DNA from: an uncultured Elusimicrobia bacterium
GTDB taxonomy: Bacteria > Elusimicrobiota > Elusimicrobia > Elusimicrobiales > Elusimicrobiaceae
Direction of reading: 5' to 3'
NCBI GenBank assembly: GCA_945913025.1
Contig: CAMECJ010000001.1
Coordinates: 248,001-312,000 of the forward strand
DNA: 64,000 bases
Translations under genes and position numbers: made by a program
The notes under the pieces: generated by a model
Told to the model about the DNA's origin: nothing
What the model saw: only the letters and a program-made list of their open reading frames with translations
The model's database searches: none
In this document: positions 6,236 to 63,508 of the stretch, in pieces
Position numbering within the stretch: position 1 is the first letter of the stretch
How the letters are laid out: each line of letters begins with the position of its first letter

Positions 6236-7111
6236 ATGCAACACTTGCGCAACCAAGTATTCCTTACGCTGGCCCTATTTTTGGCGGCCGGCCTGCTGCA
6301 CGCCCAAGACGGTAAACGCGGCTGGCAGATTGAGCTGAAAAAACTGGCGTTTGACGTTACCTCCACCGAAGTAAAAAACGCCAACGTATATCAGGACTTT
6401 TCGGAAGCCCGCCTAACGTCCGACTCGCAAAGCGCCGTACGCGGCCTTTTTGATATGATTTCGGACTATCACGCCCAGCACTACCTGTGGACCAACGAAC
6501 TGTTAATGGATTACGGACGCACGAAAGTGCGCCCCGTAAACGGCGAAAAAATTACCAACGAAAACGCCGACACCATTTTGCTTACCACCGGATACACCCA
6601 ACGGTTATGGAAGGTAGACGATATTTTAGGCGGTTTTGAAGTGGGTCCATTCGCCAATTTAGGCTACGAAACCGAGTTTACCAAACCCGACCATTCCCCC
6701 CGCAAAAAAATCCTGCGCGGTACGGCAGGTATTAAACTCTTTGAAGGGGAATACATCAAAAGCTTGTTTGCCGCAGTCGTAGGCGAGCGGGATTACACCT
6801 ATAACCCCGCCGCCAGCAAACTGGCGTGGGAAGCCGGTTTTAAAGTGGAACAGCCCGTACGCGAAGGCGTAACAGCCAAGTATTCCGCCTTATACCGCAA
6901 GTATGTAAGCACGTCCGAAAAACGCGCAACCGATTTAAACTATGAGTTTGAAGCCGATGCCCGCCTGGACGTGCAGCTTTACAAAAATCTCTATTTGGCG
7001 CCTTTTGTGTCGTACTATACAGCTAAAGGGAAATACGTTGCCAAACGCGGCGAAAACGTGTATGTGGGCGTATCGTTATCCTTCAGCCACTTGTTTCACG
7101 CGGCACAGTAA
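6236..7111 (+). CDS. Predicted outer-membrane beta-barrel protein, unknown function
   Basis: 291 residues with a clear signal peptide: positive MQHLRNQ, then hydrophobic VFLTLALFLAAGLLHAQ with cleavage after HAQ. The remainder is alternating and aromatic-rich, without membrane helices. It ends in a strand-like VYVGVSLSFSHLFHAAQ, as expected of a small barrel. Sequence such as ADARLDVQLYKNLYLAPFVSYYTA recalls DUF481/DUF3078-type barrels, but family membership is not certain. AGGAG precedes the ATG. It follows the AlaX-like gene by 12 bases; the functional link is unclear. Confidence 0.78.
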   Translation: MQHLRNQVFLTLALFLAAGLLHAQDGKRGWQIELKKLAFDVTSTEVKNANVYQDFSEARLTSDSQSAVRGLFDMISDYHAQHYLWTNELLMDYGRTKVRPVNGEKITNENADTILLTTGYTQRLWKVDDILGGFEVGPFANLGYETEFTKPDHSPRKKILRGTAGIKLFEGEYIKSLFAAVVGERDYTYNPAASKLAWEAGFKVEQPVREGVTAKYSALYRKYVSTSEKRATDLNYEFEADARLDVQLYKNLYLAPFVSYYTAKGKYVAKRGENVYVGVSLSFSHLFHAAQ

Positions 7112-7127
7112 CGGTTAATTTGACCGA

Positions 7128-7166
7128 AACGCGTCTGCGGTGTAATCACCACAGACGCGTTTTTTA
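7128..7166 (+). terminator. Intrinsic terminator
   Basis: Long stem AACGCGTCTG / CAGACGCGTT with extra pairing near the loop, then T6. Confidence 0.88.
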
Positions 7167-55356: not shown

Positions 55357-56250
55357 ATGACGAACCTATTCCTTCCAATTTATCGCAATTTAGAAAAAGA
55401 AACTCTTAAATTATCTGAAGACATCTTTTTTAATGATGAACAAATAAATGTATATTCCACTAAAATCGCTGAATTATTGGTTCGAACAGTAGTAGAAATA
55501 GAATCTTTATCTAAAGAACTATACTTTAAAAATGGAGGGCAGAAGGAAGAACCATATTTTGACACAGATTGTATTGCCTTTTTGGAACAAAAATGGAAAT
55601 TAAGCAAAAAAGAGGTATTAGTTATTGCCCCTAATTTCTATTTTCAAGATTCTGCTAATAAAATATTAACTCCCTTATATAAAGCAAACAAACATGGGAC
55701 AAGTGGTTCTGATTGGAAGAAGGCATATCAAGCGCTAAAACACGATAGAAGCAAAAACTTTAAAAGGGCCTCTGTAAAACATTTAATACGCGCATTAGCA
55801 GCATTGTATATTCTAAATATCTACAATAAAACAGATGAAGAAATACGCAAAGAAACCTCTTTACTGGATACATCTTTTGGCTCTCAAATCTTTTCGGCCA
55901 AAAAGCAGGTTGAATTTCTATTTGCGGAGAATATAAAACTACCCAATAATGCAAGTTGTATTTGTATAGAAAAAGTTCCAGATTATGTTTACAAAAAAAT
56001 AATTAAAGCATATAAAGAAGATACTCTTAAACAAATTAATTTTTTCAAAAATTCACCAGAAGGAAAAGCTTTCTTACAGAAACATCCAGAACTTTCCCTT
56101 TCCGACATAAATATTTTATCTATTCCACAATTTCGATGTAGCAAATTTCTCAGTGAATGTATGGCTGCAGGACAATCGGCCATACAATTGTTGAGAACAT
56201 CTCCCAAAGAAATTGTACTCAATAAAGGTCAAGAAATTTATCCTGATTGA
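55357..56250 (+). CDS. Island protein of unknown function, possible HEPN-like
   Basis: 297 residues from ATG 55357 (GAGAAG upstream; extended -10 TGCTACAAT at 55321-55329). AT-rich codon use differs from the chromosome to the left. All-helical prediction, no signal. The segment YQALKHDRSKNFKRASVKHLIRALAALYILN has a Lys-His-Asp-Arg motif between two helices, reminiscent of HEPN-fold RNases or their degenerate relatives; the canonical RNxxxH is not seen. The last 13 bases overlap tail-to-tail with the recombinase gene. Island context (recombinase, type III R-M) makes a defence role possible but unproven. Confidence 0.75.
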   Translation: MTNLFLPIYRNLEKETLKLSEDIFFNDEQINVYSTKIAELLVRTVVEIESLSKELYFKNGGQKEEPYFDTDCIAFLEQKWKLSKKEVLVIAPNFYFQDSANKILTPLYKANKHGTSGSDWKKAYQALKHDRSKNFKRASVKHLIRALAALYILNIYNKTDEEIRKETSLLDTSFGSQIFSAKKQVEFLFAENIKLPNNASCICIEKVPDYVYKKIIKAYKEDTLKQINFFKNSPEGKAFLQKHPELSLSDINILSIPQFRCSKFLSECMAAGQSAIQLLRTSPKEIVLNKGQEIYPD

Positions 56251-57869
56251 TTTGCTTTCCAAACTTTTTCTTGTTTCTCAAAATCTACTTGGCCCTCGGC
56301 AAGATTCATTAGTTCGCGCAATGTTAAATTACTCGGATTTTTGTATTCTAAAATATCGGTCACTATGTATGGCGATAAATAACATAAATTAACATATCGC
56401 ATAATGGTACGCTTTGTCATGTGTTGTTCTTTCTCTAAATCCCTAACGCAAATCCCTTGGCCTATTCGTTTTTTCAGTTGCCAGCCGCGTGCAAGGCCAC
56501 GCACTAAACTTTCATTAAGTTGCCGTACAGTTAAAATATTGTGGGCACTCCCATTACACAATTTTACCGATGAAACATTGGCTACCATAAATTTCCCGCG
56601 CACATATAAATTACCTTCCATCCGTTCTAGCGAAAGGGGTTTTCTCTCTAATTTCTCCGTTATTTTCGGGCAATTGATTAAATCGGTTTTTATTTGTTTT
56701 TCATCTAAAAGAATCGTCAAATAATGCGCTTTCCCTGCCGTTTGGCATGTTGCCTTAACAATCCAGGAACGCATTTGTTTATCCGTTATGCCGATTCTAT
56801 CGGACAGAGGCTCTAATTCCTCAAAATCTGTCTGCCGGAGCATATCAAGCACAAATCCGTCCAACTGCTCCACGGGCAAATAATGCCCACCAACGCCGTT
56901 GTAGTAATATAGTATTTTTCTACGGGGACTTTTTGAGGAAGTAAACCGGAATTTTTTCCCTTTATCATCGTACAACTTGCCAGCGAGCACCGTTTTATGA
57001 AACTTATAATGACAAAACGCATTGGGGTCATGAAAACGCCGCCGGATTACTTGTTGTACCTGTTCCCATAACTCTCGGGAAATAATGGGTTTATGCACTC
57101 CGTTATAAATTTTGTTTTGTCTGTAATGTGTGATTTTACCCAGGTAAACAGGATTAGTCAGCATACGTTGCACAGTGTTTTTCTTAAACGATTCGCCGCC
57201 ACATGTACGTTGGCTATGTTTGGTAACCCACTTCTTAGTATGTATCCCCTGCTCATTTAGCCACTCGGCAACTTCAAGCATATTTTGCACTTCAAGGTAT
57301 TTCTGAAAAATTTGCCGAACGATTTCCGCTTCCGGCTCATTTACCACAAGATGTCTGTCGTTGAGGTCATATCCTAATGGCAAATTGCCCCCCATCCATA
57401 GCCCCTTGGCTTTGCTGGCAGCGATTTTATCACGCACACGTTCGGCAGATACTTCCCGCTCAAATTGTGCAAAAGACAAAAGCATATTAAGCGTGAGTTT
57501 TCCTATAGAATTGCTCGTATCAAACGACTGAGTTATAGATACAAAGTTACACTCGTACTTGGCAAATTCCTGCATCATTTTATGGAAATCAAAGATAGAG
57601 CGCGAAAGACGGTCCACTTTATAGACGACAACTACCTGTATATTGCGCTCGCGGATTTCTTCCAAAAGCGCTTGCAAGCCGGGGCGCTCCATCGTGCCAC
57701 CGCTAATCCCGCCATCCTCAAAAGTTTTATAATACTCCCACCCGTTAAATGCTTGCGAGAGGATATAGGCCTTACACGCCTCTTCTTGGTTTTGGAGCGA
57801 ATTAAACTCCATTTCTAACCCGCGCTCCGTAGATTTACGAGTATATATCGCACAATTAATTTTGGGCAT
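56238..57869 (-). CDS. Large serine recombinase (site-specific integrase/resolvase family)
   Basis: 543 residues. The N-terminal catalytic domain starts INCAIYTRKSTERG with the nucleophile Ser13 and has GISGGTMERPGLQALLEEI, VYKVDRLSRSIFDF and MLLSFAQFEREVSAERVRDKIAASK. The Recombinase domain (about 150-290) holds LPLGYDLNDRHLVVNEPEAEIVRQIF and NPVYLGKI. The zinc-ribbon position (VLAGKLYDDKGKKFRF) lacks the usual Cys pairs. It should integrate or excise the island. A C-terminal helical region includes a DNA-binding-like RLAR stretch. It overlaps the DUF2924 gene by 14 bases and is the last gene of a four-gene operon. Confidence 0.93.
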   Translation of the reverse strand: MPKINCAIYTRKSTERGLEMEFNSLQNQEEACKAYILSQAFNGWEYYKTFEDGGISGGTMERPGLQALLEEIRERNIQVVVVYKVDRLSRSIFDFHKMMQEFAKYECNFVSITQSFDTSNSIGKLTLNMLLSFAQFEREVSAERVRDKIAASKAKGLWMGGNLPLGYDLNDRHLVVNEPEAEIVRQIFQKYLEVQNMLEVAEWLNEQGIHTKKWVTKHSQRTCGGESFKKNTVQRMLTNPVYLGKITHYRQNKIYNGVHKPIISRELWEQVQQVIRRRFHDPNAFCHYKFHKTVLAGKLYDDKGKKFRFTSSKSPRRKILYYYNGVGGHYLPVEQLDGFVLDMLRQTDFEELEPLSDRIGITDKQMRSWIVKATCQTAGKAHYLTILLDEKQIKTDLINCPKITEKLERKPLSLERMEGNLYVRGKFMVANVSSVKLCNGSAHNILTVRQLNESLVRGLARGWQLKKRIGQGICVRDLEKEQHMTKRTIMRYVNLCYLSPYIVTDILEYKNPSNLTLRELMNLAEGQVDFEKQEKVWKANQSG

Positions 57870-58305
57870 ATTTTTTACCTGTTAATCCGAAAAACTTGGG
57901 ACCGCTAACGTGACTTCGCACGATTTTCTCCGCCAGTGCTGTTAAATTGGGATATATTTTCCCTTCCCACTCGTAGGCGTTTTCCCCTTTTACGGTCACT
58001 TGATACGTCCGTCCTTTATAGGTTTTAGTCAGTATCGTGCCCACAGCCAACGCATAGCGTTTTTTATGCGCGTGCTCGATATACTTGTCGGGATTGCTCG
58101 CATAACGGTCAAGCCGCGTGATGTATTTTTCTTGTAATTTACAACGCCCTAGCTCACATTGGATGGCATACCATAGCGGGCGCAACTTGGCCTTAACGCC
58201 TCTCAAAGGGCTGGTATAGAATGCATTCCAATAAAACCGCAGTTCTTTGGAGGATAGCCCTTTTAATTCTTCATAACTTTTTGGCAAATAACACTTTCTT
58301 CTCAT
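57856..58305 (-). CDS. DUF2924 protein
   Basis: 149 residues, basic. PKSYEELKGLSSKELRFYWNAFY at the N-terminus is the usual start of the family, and GTILTKTYKGRTYQVTVKGENAYEWEGKIYPNLTALAEKIVRSHVSGPKFFGL is its conserved C-terminal part. DUF2924 genes commonly sit next to recombinase genes of this type, so it probably assists or regulates recombination. It overlaps both neighbours (4 and 14 bases). Confidence 0.85.
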   Translation of the reverse strand: MRRKCYLPKSYEELKGLSSKELRFYWNAFYTSPLRGVKAKLRPLWYAIQCELGRCKLQEKYITRLDRYASNPDKYIEHAHKKRYALAVGTILTKTYKGRTYQVTVKGENAYEWEGKIYPNLTALAEKIVRSHVSGPKFFGLTGKKYAQN

Positions 58306-58505
58306 GACAAAATATCTTTAATCTGACGGATTTTATCTACCGAACGGCTTTGATTACAATAGGCCTTGGCTAAAGTTTCCAAAAATTTAGCGACTAACAA
58401 AACAATATCTCTTTCACGAAGATTTCGGGGAGGCCGCCCATGAGAATTACCCGATCGGCCTTTTACAAATCGCCCTGAAGTCGGCGGCAAATGGCGCGGT
58501 GTCAT
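58302..58505 (-). CDS. Small DUF5681-like protein
   Basis: 67 residues from ATG 58505, which overlaps the upstream stop (ATGA); a longer frame would overlap that gene by 97 bases. SGRFVKGRSGNSHGRPPRN is the FxxGxSGNxxGRPP motif of DUF5681, found in phage, integron and transposon proteins and presumed to contact DNA. Overlaps the DUF2924 gene by four bases. Confidence 0.72.
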   Translation of the reverse strand: MTPRHLPPTSGRFVKGRSGNSHGRPPRNLRERDIVLLVAKFLETLAKAYCNQSRSVDKIRQIKDILS

Positions 58506-58810
58506 TTGGCAAGCCCAAAGAATACATAACCGCTGATTTGGCGTTTGACGATCGTCATTGCCACACGTGAGATGCTTTTGAATACTTTCCCTTCGCATTC
58601 AAAGCCGTTTTCCAGCACTTTTACTTCTATGGTTTTACCACGATAGGTTTTAGTGAGGATGCTACCGGGCACAGGCAAGCGGTTATCGCGTGGCCGGACA
58701 GGCAGGTTTTCAAGCGGTGTTTCTTCGGTAATAATAGGACTCACTACCCGTAAAACAGCAGGTTGCGCGGGTTTAGTTTTTGTTACTGATTTTTTAGTGT
58801 TTTTCTTCAT
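58502..58810 (-). CDS. Short DUF2924-like protein
   Basis: 102 residues. The Lys-rich start (MKKNTKKSVTKTKPAQPAV) is followed by a Pro-rich linker and GSILTKTYRGKTIEVKVLENGFECEGKVFKSISRVAMTIVKRQISGYVFFGL, a paralog of the C-terminal half of the next DUF2924 protein. It lacks the N-terminal half of that family. GGAGAT, the ribosome site, lies in one arm of the inverted repeat at 58812-58877. First gene of the four-gene recombinase operon. Confidence 0.8.
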   Translation of the reverse strand: MKKNTKKSVTKTKPAQPAVLRVVSPIITEETPLENLPVRPRDNRLPVPGSILTKTYRGKTIEVKVLENGFECEGKVFKSISRVAMTIVKRQISGYVFFGLAK

Positions 58811-58908: not shown

Positions 58909-61152
58909 TCAAATAAACACTTCTATTGGCTTCCAGATATTACGATTGGTCATATCTTCGGTCCACTCGGTATTACTTAGATATAGTTGATTGCCAATTG
59001 CGCGGACAAAGCCCCATTTAATATTTGGATGCTTTTTGGCGTATGTTTTCATGGCCTCAAATTTATTTTCCACGTATGTGTCGATATTTGCAGATTCTCC
59101 CTCCGCATTCATTCCGCCCTTTGCCTCTATAACCCAAATATCACCATTTTTAAGCTGTATTATATAATCCGGATAGAAATTATTTCTTCTAAATGCCTTT
59201 CTGTACACAATGCTAAAATATTCGTCTCCTTTGTCTCCGTTTTTGTATACATACTGTACCGGATCGTAGTGTTCACACCATTCTTCGAATACAATTTCTG
59301 TATGAGTCCGGTTGGGCGGCATTAAAATGTTGCTTCCATATTTCTCAAACACATTTTTGGATAAGAATTTCGTAGCAGATATTTTTTTATGTTGCTTATA
59401 ATACTGATACGTAGGGATCGCCCACTTTTCAGTAATGATATCGGTTTCTTTTAGATCGCCAATTTCCGTTTTATTTACCTGTTTAAACACTTCCACTAGC
59501 CGATCTCTATTATTTACTAAAAATGCGTTATATTCACGCAAACTCATGCCTTCTAACAATTTATTTTCATGTTCAAATGCTTGTTCCTCTTGGGACAAGA
59601 AAGAAAACTGTTTTTCTTCAGGACCAAACAGAATACGTAAGGCATTGTTAGAAATATTTTCATCGATACCTATTGCGGCTGCTATTTTCCGTTTAGCATC
59701 ACGTATAATAAACCCATCATCATGGTTATTAATCTGATGTTCGCCGCCAAAAATGGTGTTCAGGTTCAATATATCATGGGTAGTTCTAGCAACACCTTCT
59801 ATTGCTGTTGTTTTAAGTTTTGTACCAAACACATAGCCTTTTGCTGTTTCCATCTCATGTTTATCGAGTCGACCATTTTGATCCAAATCACACTCATTCA
59901 ACATGGCTTTTCGTATTACTTGTACTACGGCTTCGGGATTAACAGCAAATCTGTCACTTCCATTAAGGACATCTTTTTCCAACAACCAATTGGGTGCACC
60001 TGATTTCCGCTTGTATTGATATGTGTAAAAAGAATCCGAAATACTATTTGTAAGGCCTTCACTAAACTGATTATCTAACGTATATAGATAACAATTATCC
60101 ACTAGCGCATTATCATAATGCTTTCTTCCCGGCATCCTGCGGATTCTACCGACGGTTTGGACATTAAATCGCTCTGTTCCGCCTTCTCTCAATTTTACGA
60201 GTATTTTGGCCCGAGGGCAGTCCCACCCTGTCGCAATGGCCTGTTTAAACAACAAGAAGGCATATCTCCCATCAAGTTTTGTGATCTCCTCCGGATTATC
60301 GGGATGGTCACCGCTAAACCATGACGTAACAAGCCCGGAACTTTCAGGATATCCCATATCTTCTAACGCTTGTTTAACACGTTTAATCCAATCCTCACTT
60401 CCATTCGGAAATTGTATGAGAACAAGAGGACGTATTTTGAGTCCCATTTTGTCATATTCTGCTTGGATCTCTTTTCGTTTCTTGTCCGCTAATTCTAGAA
60501 GTAACAAGTCATCATCTTGTTTGTTATTATCTTGAATTGCTTGAGATACTCCTTCGTTAATAGAAATACCCGTAGCAATCAGCCCGGCCGCAATCACTTC
60601 ATCATCTTTAATTTCTTCAAGAGAATCACCCTTACTCATCGGGGTGGCAGAAACACGTAACACATGTTTTGGTTGTATATTAGCCACATATTCGTTAGCC
60701 GTATCACGGTATTTGTGTTCTTCATCAATAATCATGAATATATCAATCTGGCTATTATGACAGGCTAATACTTTAGTCATTAAATCCTTCTGTTCTCCCT
60801 CCCGTAGTACAACATTGGATTTTTTATTAATTTTATCCCAGTTGATAAAATACACTTTTCCTCGAGGATCAGGTTCATTTATAAAATCGTACACATCCCC
60901 ATCCATGATACCGGATGTCAGCTCTTGAAAAGTTAGTTGAGATTGTTTTTCCAATCCGCCCGCTCCCGGACATAGCCATAAAAATACGGTATTCGGGTTT
61001 TCATCTAAATAATCATCAATAAATCGGCACACTACCACCGTTTTACCGGAGCCTGTCGGGGCATATAAGACCACTTCTTCATGATCGGCACATTTTTTTA
61101 GAAGGCCTTCCTCATGTTTAGTTTGAAAATCTATTATCTCTCCGTTAAACAT
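58909..61152 (-). CDS. res: Type III restriction enzyme, Res (helicase-nuclease) subunit
   Basis: 747 residues, shorter than the ~970 of EcoP15I Res. Walker A VVLYAPTGSGKTVVV (about residue 32), IDEEHKYRDTANEY (DEEH box), LRVSATPMS, IATGWDCPRAKILVKLR and VQTVGRIRRMPG form the SF2 helicase core. NNFYPDYIIQLKNGDIWVIEAKGG near residue 685 is the C-terminal PD-(D/E)xK nuclease. Near residue 420, CDLDQNGRLDKHEM matches an EF-hand calcium loop at every ligand position. It cuts DNA with the Mod subunit after translocation. Start ATG overlaps the mod stop by one base. Confidence 0.93.
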   Translation of the reverse strand: MFNGEIIDFQTKHEEGLLKKCADHEEVVLYAPTGSGKTVVVCRFIDDYLDENPNTVFLWLCPGAGGLEKQSQLTFQELTSGIMDGDVYDFINEPDPRGKVYFINWDKINKKSNVVLREGEQKDLMTKVLACHNSQIDIFMIIDEEHKYRDTANEYVANIQPKHVLRVSATPMSKGDSLEEIKDDEVIAAGLIATGISINEGVSQAIQDNNKQDDDLLLLELADKKRKEIQAEYDKMGLKIRPLVLIQFPNGSEDWIKRVKQALEDMGYPESSGLVTSWFSGDHPDNPEEITKLDGRYAFLLFKQAIATGWDCPRAKILVKLREGGTERFNVQTVGRIRRMPGRKHYDNALVDNCYLYTLDNQFSEGLTNSISDSFYTYQYKRKSGAPNWLLEKDVLNGSDRFAVNPEAVVQVIRKAMLNECDLDQNGRLDKHEMETAKGYVFGTKLKTTAIEGVARTTHDILNLNTIFGGEHQINNHDDGFIIRDAKRKIAAAIGIDENISNNALRILFGPEEKQFSFLSQEEQAFEHENKLLEGMSLREYNAFLVNNRDRLVEVFKQVNKTEIGDLKETDIITEKWAIPTYQYYKQHKKISATKFLSKNVFEKYGSNILMPPNRTHTEIVFEEWCEHYDPVQYVYKNGDKGDEYFSIVYRKAFRRNNFYPDYIIQLKNGDIWVIEAKGGMNAEGESANIDTYVENKFEAMKTYAKKHPNIKWGFVRAIGNQLYLSNTEWTEDMTNRNIWKPIEVFI

Positions 61153-63092
61153 TATTCAGCAGCCTCCCTTAATTCTTGCCCAAAAAATTCTTTAGGAATA
61201 TATTTATATCCCTTTTCCTGCAGTAGTTTTAATTCTTTGGCATTAAATATAATATTTTGGTTCACCCAAACATGTTCAATTTGAGCATATTTCTTTTTAT
61301 CCAAAATAATATTCTTAAAATCTGTCTTATTTAGAATGAGGACATTCTTTTTATTATCTATCTCGATAGCATTTTGAATTTCAATCATTTCTTTAACGTG
61401 CAAAGCAAGAGCATTACTTAAAAGATAATCTTCCGGCTTACGTGGCGTCCATTCGCATTTGAAGTATTTGACATTGGCATTAAATCCATCCGCCATTGGA
61501 ATATCACTTTCCAAATAATTACCTTTTAAAGGTTTGTCATTAATATCCTTTCCTTTAATGCTACATACTGTTCTAGGCCAAGTGACATATTGGGCAATAC
61601 CCTTTGCCTCCCACTCAGGCTCTCCTTTTTTAATGCCCATTTTGGTAAACTCTTTTTCTTCGGCTTCAGATATTTCATTATTAGTAACCATGATCCAACG
61701 GCGATTTCCACCATCTTCGGCATTGAGTAAATTTACAGCATGACCAGTAGTTCCTGATCCCGCAAAAAAGTCTACAATTACTGCATTTGGTTTATTAGCC
61801 ACGAAAAAGCGTACGGTATCATGTACAGCATATAGAGATTTCGGGAAAGGGAAGCGACGATCTACAAGAATATTTTGCAAAAGTTTTGTTCCGTATTCAG
61901 TAGCATTATGCGAGGAAATAGCCCATTGATTGCCAGGGATAAACAATGCTTTATACTCAGAATCGTCAATGATAGCGGCCCCATCCTCTCCATAGCCGGA
62001 TATTTTTAATTCTCCTCTTTGTATTTTTTCTTGCACTCCCTTAGGAGCATAAGATATTCCCATTTTATTGCCACTCAACTTTCCAAAATATACATACCCC
62101 ATATCAATGAGTTTCTTTAATTTTACCGGAGTATACATCCAACGGCCTTCCGTCCCATTTTTGTGAATTGGCCAAATAGCCACTTCATTATCGCGGATTT
62201 GAATACTATCTCTAGATTGATTCTTAGGCAATACATTCCCAATTCTTATAAATTTTCCTTCTTTGGAGAATATAATTGGATAGAAACATCCTGGAGAATC
62301 ATTTCTTCCGCTTCCAGTACCAGAACGCAATAAACCAGCTAAGCGTACAGAATCCTTTCCAGTAGCTTTAATATTGCCTAACCACTCTTTAGATAAATTT
62401 AATCTAGCAACGCTTGAATTTCCAACTTGTACAAAGAATATATATTCATTAACCCTTGCCAATTCGGCTTCCCTAGCCACCCCTTTAACATTAATTACCG
62501 TACTAACCATATAAATCCTAGAATTTGGAAACATTTCTTCTAGAAGACACCCTAATCGCATGTATTCTTTTTCATCAATCGTACAAATCAGAACGGAATC
62601 TGCTGGGTTTAGCAAATTTTTAGCTATTGCCAATCGATTCTTCATCATAGATAACCACTTACTGTGTCGATAGACATCATTACTATCAACATAATCATTA
62701 TTGTATTTCCAGTCTCGTGCACCAGAATTGTACGGAGGATCTATGTAGATACAGTCAGCCTTTCCTTTGTGTGTTTTTTCCAATAAATAAAGAGCTTGAA
62801 GGTTATCGCCTTCTATGATAAAATTCCATGGCAATTTTTCATCTTTACATAACCGTCTTGTTTTATCAGCGCAAAATACGGGAATATTTTCTTTTAACTT
62901 ATCATCAACTTCTTCGGAGTGTTCTTCCCATACAAGGCCATATTTCTTTTCCCGTAACTGATTTTCGATTTCATTGAAAGCACGAATGGAAGCATCATCG
63001 GTATGCGTTTGTTTCAAACCTTCCAAGAAGGAAATCATTCTATCTCTCTTTTTCTTTGATAAATTTTCAGCCATAAGGATTCGCCGTACCAT
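61152..63092 (-). CDS. mod: Type III DNA adenine methyltransferase, Mod subunit
   Basis: 646 residues from ATG 63092, which has GAGG six bases upstream; ATG 63074 (MAENLSKKK) lacks one. DCIYIDPPYNSGARDWKYNNDY (motif IV DPPY, about residue 118) comes before VIVDFFAGSGTTGHAVN (motif I, about residue 450). This order defines beta-class N6-adenine methyltransferases such as type III Mod. The segment between holds the target-recognition domain, so the DNA target cannot be predicted. No simple repeat tract lies in the reading frame, so there is no sign of phase variation here. Preceded by a candidate attenuator RNA. Confidence 0.94.
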   Translation of the reverse strand: MVRRILMAENLSKKKRDRMISFLEGLKQTHTDDASIRAFNEIENQLREKKYGLVWEEHSEEVDDKLKENIPVFCADKTRRLCKDEKLPWNFIIEGDNLQALYLLEKTHKGKADCIYIDPPYNSGARDWKYNNDYVDSNDVYRHSKWLSMMKNRLAIAKNLLNPADSVLICTIDEKEYMRLGCLLEEMFPNSRIYMVSTVINVKGVAREAELARVNEYIFFVQVGNSSVARLNLSKEWLGNIKATGKDSVRLAGLLRSGTGSGRNDSPGCFYPIIFSKEGKFIRIGNVLPKNQSRDSIQIRDNEVAIWPIHKNGTEGRWMYTPVKLKKLIDMGYVYFGKLSGNKMGISYAPKGVQEKIQRGELKISGYGEDGAAIIDDSEYKALFIPGNQWAISSHNATEYGTKLLQNILVDRRFPFPKSLYAVHDTVRFFVANKPNAVIVDFFAGSGTTGHAVNLLNAEDGGNRRWIMVTNNEISEAEEKEFTKMGIKKGEPEWEAKGIAQYVTWPRTVCSIKGKDINDKPLKGNYLESDIPMADGFNANVKYFKCEWTPRKPEDYLLSNALALHVKEMIEIQNAIEIDNKKNVLILNKTDFKNIILDKKKYAQIEHVWVNQNIIFNAKELKLLQEKGYKYIPKEFFGQELREAAE

Positions 63093-63123
63093 CAGAATCC
63101 TCAAAAAGAGATAGATCCGTGTA

Positions 63124-63392
63124 TAAAAAAACGGCTGCACTATCTGAGCTATCGAACTAACCCAAAAGAAACAGCCGTAACCTCTTGCCGCCTAAAAAGA
63201 CGGCAAGAAGTATTTTCAGCGTATTAGCGTGGGCTCATGACTTCCCACACAGTACGCCTAAATTGGCTGCTTTTGGAGTTCGATATGCCTTTGATTTCTC
63301 AAAAGCTTTTCCTTTTCAGGATTCCAAAAACAGTTAAAAATGTCTTTGCCCTATTTTGGGCTCTATTTTTCTCCCTAATACTAAGTCTTAAT
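63124..63392 (-). ncRNA. Candidate structured leader RNA/attenuator of the mod-res operon
   Basis: Minus-strand transcript predicted from the extended -10 TGCTACAAT (63407-63399) to T7 at 63131-63125. P1, a long-range helix of 21 bp with two 3-nt bulges, pairs 63265-63285 with 63150-63158, 63162-63168 and 63172-63176. It encloses P2 (GCGTA/TACGC with GTGGG/CCCAC, 63219-63257) and P3 (CTTGCCG/CGGCAAG, 63184-63207). The 3' arm of P1 contains GGCTG, also the 5' arm of a terminator ACGGCTG/CAGCCGT (63172-63178 with 63131-63137). P1 and the terminator are mutually exclusive. No open frame of note lies inside. It matches no RNA family I know. Confidence 0.45.
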
Positions 63393-63475
63393 ACTTTTAT
63401 TGTAGCAAACATATACCATAAACGCGCAAATTCCACTTAATTGCGCTAATTTCGCTACTTTCTTCCATATTTCCG

Positions 63476-63508
63476 CTTGACTTCTCTCCCTATAAGAAAC
63501 GTGAATGT
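63476..63508 (+). promoter_or_regulatory. Shared 33-bp upstream element, copy 2
   Basis: CTTGACTT...CGTGAATGT, 28 of 33 identical to the element at 58849-58881; 38 bases before the ATG of the next gene. Confidence 0.55.

Follow-up and report, generated by a model that had tools for sequence, protein, structure and literature searches.

What kind of RNA lies in front of the type III restriction–modification (R-M) operon of this uncultured Elusimicrobia bacterium, and does it serve that operon alone? R-M genes are usually thought of as protein-controlled, with C proteins as their controllers. In the window, by which we mean the whole analyzed stretch of 64 000 nt, the initial annotation had described an RNA switch on the minus strand upstream of mod, in which a long-range helix closing over two local hairpins competes with a terminator hairpin. 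The two genes of the operon, mod followed by res, are adjacent on the same strand and match Pfam N6_N4_Mtase and ResIII, respectively, as expected for a type III R-M operon. We picked the mod start (ATG at 63092) by eye; a GAGG is located 7 nt upstream of this ATG. The Pfam entry TypeIII_RM_meth had no match in the window genome and a match in 1 of 90 family genomes, and mod homologues were found at E 1e-20 in 2 of the 90 family genomes, the window genome counted. The features of the locus are the following:

63399–63407, minus strand: extended -10 promoter-like element TGCTACAAT, predicted start point near 63392 (sequence)
63371–63375, minus strand: GGGAG, counterpart of an AGGAG motif seen in a subset of copies (sequence)
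63348–63361, minus strand: small, optional 5' hairpin P0 (GCCC AAAATA GGGC; sequence)
63126–63333 (G000:C1:311126-311333), minus strand: conserved RNA core, a full-length family copy (covariance-model match of 131.4 bits over model positions 1–201 of 201, the window copy being itself among the 69 training sequences)
63324–63333, minus strand: arm A CUGUUUUUGG, anti-antiterminator, partner of arm B (alignment and pair counts)
63310–63321, minus strand: hairpin H1 (UCCU GAAA AGGA; sequence and alignment)
63287–63306, minus strand: hairpin H2 (sequence and alignment)
63278–63285, minus strand: hypervariable strand N UAUCGAAC, fully complementary to N'
63267–63276, minus strand: arm B CCAAAAGCAG, alternative partner of A or C (alignment, folding and pair counts)
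63218–63258, minus strand: hairpin H3, with the apical loop palindrome UCAUGA (63240–63235) as a proposed kissing loop
63180–63211, minus strand: hairpin H4 (alignment)
63170–63177, minus strand: arm C CGGCUGUU, common to the antiterminator (with B) and the terminator (with D; folding and pair counts)
63150–63157, minus strand: hypervariable strand N' GUUCGAUA, within the terminator loop (N:N' pairing test)
63132–63137, minus strand: arm D (CAGCCG), 3' side of the terminator stem (sequence and pair counts)
63125–63131, minus strand: T7 tract of the intrinsic terminator (sequence)
61155–63092, minus strand: mod, type III R-M DNA methylase of 646 aa (Pfam N6_N4_Mtase, E 1.1e-17)
58909–61152, minus strand: res of the same operon, 747 aa (Pfam ResIII, E 3.7e-13)

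The RNA element extends from 63333 to 63126, its T tract ends at 63125, 33 nt upstream of the mod ATG, and its parts follow each other from 5' to 3' in the order A, H1, H2, N, B, H3, H4, C, N', D and T tract. The initial annotation had correctly placed the long-range helix, both local hairpins, the terminator hairpin and its T7 run (63131–63125). It had overlooked arm A at the 5' side (63333–63324), and the element starts farther upstream than it had assumed. Its three-way junction holds for the antiterminated state, but it had been drawn without arm A and so without the competing A:B helix. By eye, P0-like hairpins also precede the core in some other copies. Directly behind mod-res (56238–58810, minus strand) we recognized by eye a gene of 543 aa resembling a large serine recombinase, as well as two small ORFs that have a 'GTILTKTYKGRTYQV'-like or 'GSILTKTYRGKTIEV'-like stretch in common; the R-M operon may be part of an integrated element. 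A second mod-like match is found about 15 kb past the window end (G000:C1:327458-327919, 40% identity over residues 39–201, with an internal stop), and the covariance model detects no copy of the RNA at this locus (L232).

By DNA search, 42 of 101 genomes carry similar stretches, the window genome counted; in two of the 42 the matches are weak, short and in another family, perhaps by chance. A gapped pattern scan of named genomes, in which the exact A and B words were required and C, D, N, N' and the hairpins were left unconstrained, yielded at least 100 stretches. Among those listed 95 match the family profile, 90 of them labelled Elusimicrobiota or Candidatus Praeruminimicrobium and 5 labelled 'uncultured bacterium'. 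Pattern matches in Scytonema, Clostridioides, AUK067, Evansella and Draconibacterium were discarded, as was the single match in a viral contig: all of them fit only around the A:B helix that the pattern requires, have no match in the profile search and reach at most 32.8 bits with the covariance model described next. We built a covariance model (R1) from an alignment of 69 diverse copies (A1). At E 0.001, with at most 7 candidates scored per genome, R1 matches 93 of 340 Elusimicrobiota genomes, comprising 62 of 66 genomes of the window genus, 18 of 18 of its sister genus and 13 of a second family (f21); the single-contig genome G118, from another genus of the window family, gave no R1 match. 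The second family is probably Endomicrobiaceae, since the copy of Candidatus Praeruminimicrobium purgamenti (L132) equals an f21 copy (L248) in N and in the sequence from C to D. Eighteen copies are present in the window genome (20 model rows, of which 2 are short antisense matches), and two f21 genomes show 22 and 25 model matches at E 1e-6. The element at this R-M locus is therefore one member of a large dispersed family.

Within the window the model detects no second copy, just two weak antisense matches over the same place. A search of Rfam 15 with the whole window and ten other copy-bearing loci gave nothing above the gathering threshold except tRNA, which excludes a known Rfam family for these loci; with 62900–63500 and E values up to 10 we obtained four matches, all far below gathering and seemingly unrelated. 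A distant blastn search of phage and plasmid collections with the window copy gave no match. Two neighbouring copies (L258 and L267, G314:C15:6739-6915 and 6972-7159) lie in the second family upstream of a gene that we assigned by eye as EcoRI-type methylase-like. Such a pair within one genome, together with the many dispersed copies per genome, is also what one would see if the element were a mobile repeat or a plain terminator (MITE- or REP-like) with no regulatory role. For the counts below, copies at least 90% alike were merged, which reduced 144 copies to 116; four cut-off or arm-lacking profile matches (one copy each in L068, L101, L096 and L046) and antisense or weak matches below 60 bits were left out. 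In the second-family set 29 of 30 loci were parsed, L259 passing the N:N' count only via a probable chance site, and the pairing and folding tests cover 28 loci, without L267, which was parsed to the same element as L258, and without the unparsed L273.

The strand N is hypervariable, with 102 different 8-mers among the 116 copies, and all eight N:N' positions are paired (Watson–Crick or G-U) in 110 of the 116, compared to 1.5% with shuffled partners. At least seven positions are Watson–Crick paired in 113 of 116 copies, and at least seven are paired in 16.5% of the partner-shuffled cases; the pairing is lost in two copies, L068 and L021. In A1 two-sided changes are seen at each of the 9 N:N' pairs and at each of the 23 pairs that make up H3 and H4. 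The structure composed of A:B, N:N', H3, H4 and C:D has 92.5% paired cells versus 76.4% after shuffling and scores above every one of 500 shuffles on each of the five measures, and its paired cells drop to 37–51% if the partners are slid by 1–3 columns. Compensatory substitutions in homologous loci and conservation of the region were the two comparative checks to which the initial annotation had tied its fold; the homologous loci do carry compensatory changes (in N:N', H3 and H4), and the region is conserved among them. That diverged copies retain their pairing by compensation argues against a mobile repeat.

For the antiterminator, the structure of N:N' and B:C has 89.4% paired cells versus 31–55% when slid and lies above all shuffles on three of five measures, with no excess over shuffling on the other two (pairs changed on both sides, 456/500; further pair types, 124/500). 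B:C itself is paired in 97.5% of cells, and its changes in A1 are one-sided only. We consider B:C to be real for four reasons. First, the B columns 83–84, which lie outside A:B, hold only C or U opposite a G of arm C in all 138 cells of A1. Second, arm C is nearly frozen, with 3 changes over 8 positions in 116 copies, whereas arm D has 141 changes, mostly to wobble pairs; this asymmetry is expected if C has two partners. Third, copy L250 carries a single base change in every one of the four arms, and A:B, B:C and C:D are all retained. Fourth, only 7 of 28 second-family copies retain the outermost A:B pair, but 26 of 28 retain its base in B, which has a second partner in C. In that family the restriction of two B positions to C or U is violated in 9 of 28 copies, and all eight B:C pairs are present in 12 of 28 only. 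Covariation of A:B is slight, 1 of its 10 pairs having changed on both sides in A1, and in 84 of the 116 copies A and B are constant partly because the scan pattern required these words; in the 32 copies from outside the pattern scan we counted 1 change in A, 19 in B, 1 in C and 37 in D. The outer stem of C:D is paired in 96.3% of the A1 cells, and the positions conserved in sequence are mostly within the switching arms. At the base of H4 (A1 near columns 143–146 and 181–182) a conserved unpaired U is seen by eye beside a covarying purine:pyrimidine pair, a possible contact site.

The two arrangements, A:B with C:D (terminator) and N-B:C-N' (antiterminator), are mutually exclusive and common to the family copies: A:B takes up arm B, B:C takes the end of B and three bases beyond it, and C:D takes the same C arm. 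The segment 63300–63110 folds at -75.7 kcal/mol compared to a shuffle mean of -46.2 kcal/mol (z -6.8), and none of 200 shuffles was as good. The long helix of the initial annotation is the fold of lowest energy only before the last arm is transcribed; once arm A is included, the window copy is most stable with A:B and the terminator (-90.6 versus -81.1 kcal/mol for the long helix). In folds of prefixes lacking arm D the B:C antiterminator is best in 114 of 116 copies, and in full-length folds A:B and C:D each appear in 112 of 116. When both states were forced, the terminated one was lower in 111 of 116 copies, by a median of 6.35 kcal/mol, these energies being thermodynamic and for secondary structure alone. 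In the second family B:C forms in 24 of 28 prefix folds (it is absent in 4 of 28), and A:B and C:D each form in 27 of 28 full-length folds; L258 lacks the terminated state at full length. This predicted folding behavior is what a cotranscriptional attenuator needs.

The same full-length minimum-energy folds, which favor A:B and C:D, would also suit an RNA without any antiterminator, in which N:N' is a pseudoknot with the terminator loop and the transcript is a compact structured RNA that always terminates. N' does lie within this loop, the RNAalifold consensus is A:B with C:D, and B:C varies on one side only in A1 and is weaker in the second family. However, a pseudoknot leaves unexplained why C is frozen and D drifts, why columns 83–84 of B hold only C or U opposite G in A1, and why the last G of B is retained where its A:B pair is lost; we regard it as unlikely. 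The opposition of terminator and antiterminator claimed at the outset is well supported by the N:N' complementarity, the B:C pair counts, the C/D asymmetry, L250 and the folding. An intrinsic terminator between promoter and gene is present in the sequence as the C:D stem with its T tract, and a conserved, mutually exclusive antiterminator accompanies it, B:C being weaker in the second family.

Upstream of the core, between 75 and 20 nt, extended -10 forms (TGnTAnAAT, TGnTATAAT or TGnTATACT) occur in 38 of 115 copies compared to 2.1 expected by shuffling, and no excess of TTGACA -35 boxes was observed (1 of 115 copies). Of the 115 copies, 28 also have AGGAG in this interval, where 4.0 would be expected, and for most of them there is no start codon that the motif could serve. 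In some copies the AGGAG or GGGAG site lies about 40–55 nt upstream of the core, and 63375–63371 is its counterpart in the window. The motif might be used for ribosome standby or by a protein. We looked for a leader peptide in the 30 copies that carry AGGAG or GGGAG: in 18 a suitably spaced start codon is missing, and the other 12 encode 1 to 69 codons, 9 of them at most 9, with no common peptide seen, so that a leader-peptide attenuator was rejected for these copies.

Promoter-like elements at one end and a complete terminator at the other would equally fit a family of stand-alone genes for trans-acting small RNAs, whose downstream genes are incidental, and self-complementary loops of the kind described below are typical of RNA–RNA contact. 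Against this stands the relation of the element to its neighbours. When ORFs of at least 100 aa were sought on both strands, the first one downstream of the RNA shared its strand in 102 of 106 judgeable copies (10 of 116 were not judgeable) and lay within 150 nt in 98 of the 102, and the nearest upstream ORFs of the 116 copies, taken as a control, are on the same strand in 60, on the opposite strand in 44 and absent in 12. Particular classes of downstream genes are preferred as well, and a pairing that would disarm the terminator is conserved. A trans-acting RNA is thus less probable still than the pseudoknot.

In an RNA-strand search 108 of the 116 copies had a downstream ORF, and 101 passed the distance and length filter. 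Of these 101 resolved genes 66 encode type IV pilin-like proteins, all matching Pfam N_methyl, with additional matches to ComP_DUS in 16 and to Pilin_GH in 14. The pilin-like start codons lie 30–58 nt downstream of the RNA in 62 of 65 cases. A position so nearly fixed is not accounted for by a pseudoknot, and it makes a mobile repeat, already at odds with the compensated pairing, very improbable. Matching by coordinates places 12 of the 18 copies of the window genome upstream of N_methyl genes. This genome (1.76 Mb) contains 111 N_methyl (pilin/pseudopilin) genes over the Pfam cut-off, eight of the matches lying within the window; 99 of the 111 have no model copy and about a tenth carry the RNA. 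None of the eight pilin genes within the window has the RNA upstream, by inspection of the upstream sequence and by the covariance model. Runs of 10–12 T are found upstream of the pilin-like genes at 14.7, 28.1, 45.9 and 52.7 kb (minus strand), and three of these four runs sit between TTGAC -35-like and GATAC -10-like elements, e.g. CTTGACCCG-T12-GATACGAT; we note these sites as candidate phase-variable promoters.

We scanned 29 of the 35 non-pilin proteins with Pfam (L049, L067, L069, L086, L088 and L138 were left out). Nine of the 29 are R-M, methyltransferase or similar proteins: the window mod, a second type III mod (L002), EcoRI-type methylases (L011 and L073), HSDR_N proteins (L033 and L083), a helicase with a PLD domain (L111) and, below the curated cut-off, MmeI-like methylases (L004 and L015). 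Most others are surface-related. They include six glycosyltransferases (families 2, 8 and 9), a polysaccharide pyruvyl transferase, a TupA-like ATP-grasp protein, two MptE-like and three beta-barrel proteins, and BamE-domain, sulfatase-domain and YrbL-like proteins; one further protein has a sub-threshold GPDPase_memb match and three have no match. In the second family, judged by eye, only 4 of 27 downstream genes are pilin-like and the other targets are varied, including lipoprotein-like and secreted proteins, GT8-like proteins and an EcoRI-type methylase.

A switch specific to R-M control, as the setting of the window copy had suggested, can be weighed against these genes and a tree of the 116 copies. 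The copy nearest to that of the window lies upstream of the other type III mod (L002, distance 0.52), and the copies of the MmeI-like methylases are also near (L004, 0.69; L015, 0.76), though L007 (0.63) and L006 (0.67), which have other neighbour genes, are nearer. Moreover, the RNA is found upstream at 6 of 12 EcoRI-type methylase loci, one of the six being weaker (59.8 bits); these 12 loci were modelled from 13 places, L245 being omitted as a second piece of the L243 ORF, and L241 starts at a contig edge, which leaves no room upstream for the RNA to be seen. The majority of the resolved downstream genes, however, are pilin-like, in the window genome as in the whole set, and for 6 of 10 R-M-linked copies the nearest neighbour on the tree is not R-M-linked. 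We therefore rejected control of R-M genes only, to which we assign a very small likelihood. From the same six neighbours it follows that R-M genes probably came under the RNA several times. R-M and DNA-methyltransferase genes of several unrelated kinds nevertheless recur among the targets as a minority, so that control by RNA does appear to occur for R-M genes.

The apical loop of H3 is a further peculiarity of the family. Of the 38 distinct H3 loops, 24 have a 6-nt and 34 a 4-nt palindrome, compared to 3.7 and 16.9, respectively, after shuffling of the loops, where loops of related copies are not independent. Among the distinct loops of the other hairpins we observed no such excess (6-nt palindromes in 0 of 52 for H1, 3 of 73 for H2 and 1 of 86 for H4). 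The 6-nt palindromes are UAAUUA, UUAUAA, UCAUGA, UUCGAA, UUGCAA, CUGCAG, CUAUAG, CUCGAG and CAGCUG, the 4-nt cores GAUC, AGCU and GGCC, and a minority of loops, e.g. GUUGCU and UAGCA, have no palindrome. Palindromes of 4 or 6 nt, for the most part of these kinds, are also present in 25 of 28 H3 loops of the second family. The H3 sequence provides the self-complementary apical loop that a kissing loop requires. The exchange of one palindrome for another at a fixed position suggests that two RNA molecules pair through their H3 loops and so dimerize; a dimeric protein could explain the palindromes as well. We put forward, as a tentative idea that we hold to be rather less than an even bet, a new class of attenuator whose input is leader dimerization via these loops. 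Read-through of pilin, surface-glycan and R-M genes would then depend on how much of a given leader, or of all leaders sharing its loop, is present; the family has many H3 loop sequences, and different loops need not cross-pair. If true, this would be an RNA-only, self-counting control of the surfaces used by phages and DNA and of the R-M systems that police them. An excerpt from a review states that functional RNA oligomers are rarely observed in nature (PMC7357161).

Taken together, our findings argue, with a probability of roughly 0.8, that the element is a cis-acting transcription attenuator, i.e. a riboswitch-like leader RNA, of a dispersed Elusimicrobiota family. In the proposed course of events A:B would form first during transcription. 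As soon as C and N' leave the polymerase, N:N' would act as a toehold by which B is pulled from A to C, so that the antiterminator is favored until D is made and competes for C. Left to itself, the antiterminator would lose to the terminator, which is the more stable final state in most copies, and a short leader RNA of about 270 nt would be released; a signal that stabilizes the H3/H4 junction closed by the antiterminator would allow transcription into mod-res. We infer that the signal works in the gene-on direction because the terminated state is lower in energy, and our best reading of the modelled folds is an operon that is off by default unless a signal holds the N-B:C-N' helix over the H3/H4 junction. 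Candidate inputs are dimerization of the RNA through H3, a small molecule or a protein, and loop–loop dimerization is a plausible part of the signal. Since in the window family the switch is wired mainly to pilin-like genes and also to surface-glycan, outer-membrane and R-M genes, the R-M operon of the window is best explained as one member of a surface-and-defence regulon.

Trp-type attenuators work by the logic of alternative 1:2, 2:3 and 3:4 helices. The present RNA likewise has a chain of mutually exclusive helices (A:B, B:C and C:D) ending in an intrinsic terminator but, unlike them, gives no sign of a leader peptide in the 30 copies with AGGAG or GGGAG, and we know of no counterpart of its hypervariable N:N' helix and H3/H4 module in classical attenuators. 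The c-di-GMP-I and cGAMP (GEMM) riboswitches control pilin and surface genes in other phyla; many copies per genome, a surface and pilus regulon and an expression platform at the level of transcription are shared with them, whereas no Rfam 15 match above gathering links the window or the ten copy-bearing loci to them. Retroviral dimer initiation sites and the hairpins of the guanidine-II riboswitch are reported also to carry 4–6 self-complementary nt in an apical loop; here, in contrast, many different palindromes occupy one loop of one attenuator family, and dimerization is a prediction. The RptR repressor is reported to provide a protein-based control of R-M gene expression (PMC12255303). 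With it and the C proteins our RNA would share the control of R-M gene expression; it differs from such DNA-binding repressors in being an RNA leader and in standing before pilin and glycan genes as well. We found no description of this Elusimicrobiota RNA in the full text of open-licence PubMed Central papers, and because an Rfam match is lacking too, the family is apparently new. The attenuator logic is already known; the RNA family, the palindromic-loop module and the regulon appear to be new.

The finding adds an apparently undescribed family of RNA switches with strong comparative support from gut bacteria of a poorly studied phylum. One kind of leader stands upstream of pilin-like, surface-glycan, outer-membrane and several unrelated R-M genes, which would make it a concrete case of RNA control over R-M genes, and the palindromic-loop module suggests regulation via RNA dimerization. 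The signal of this orphan switch could reveal how these gut bacteria choose what to display.
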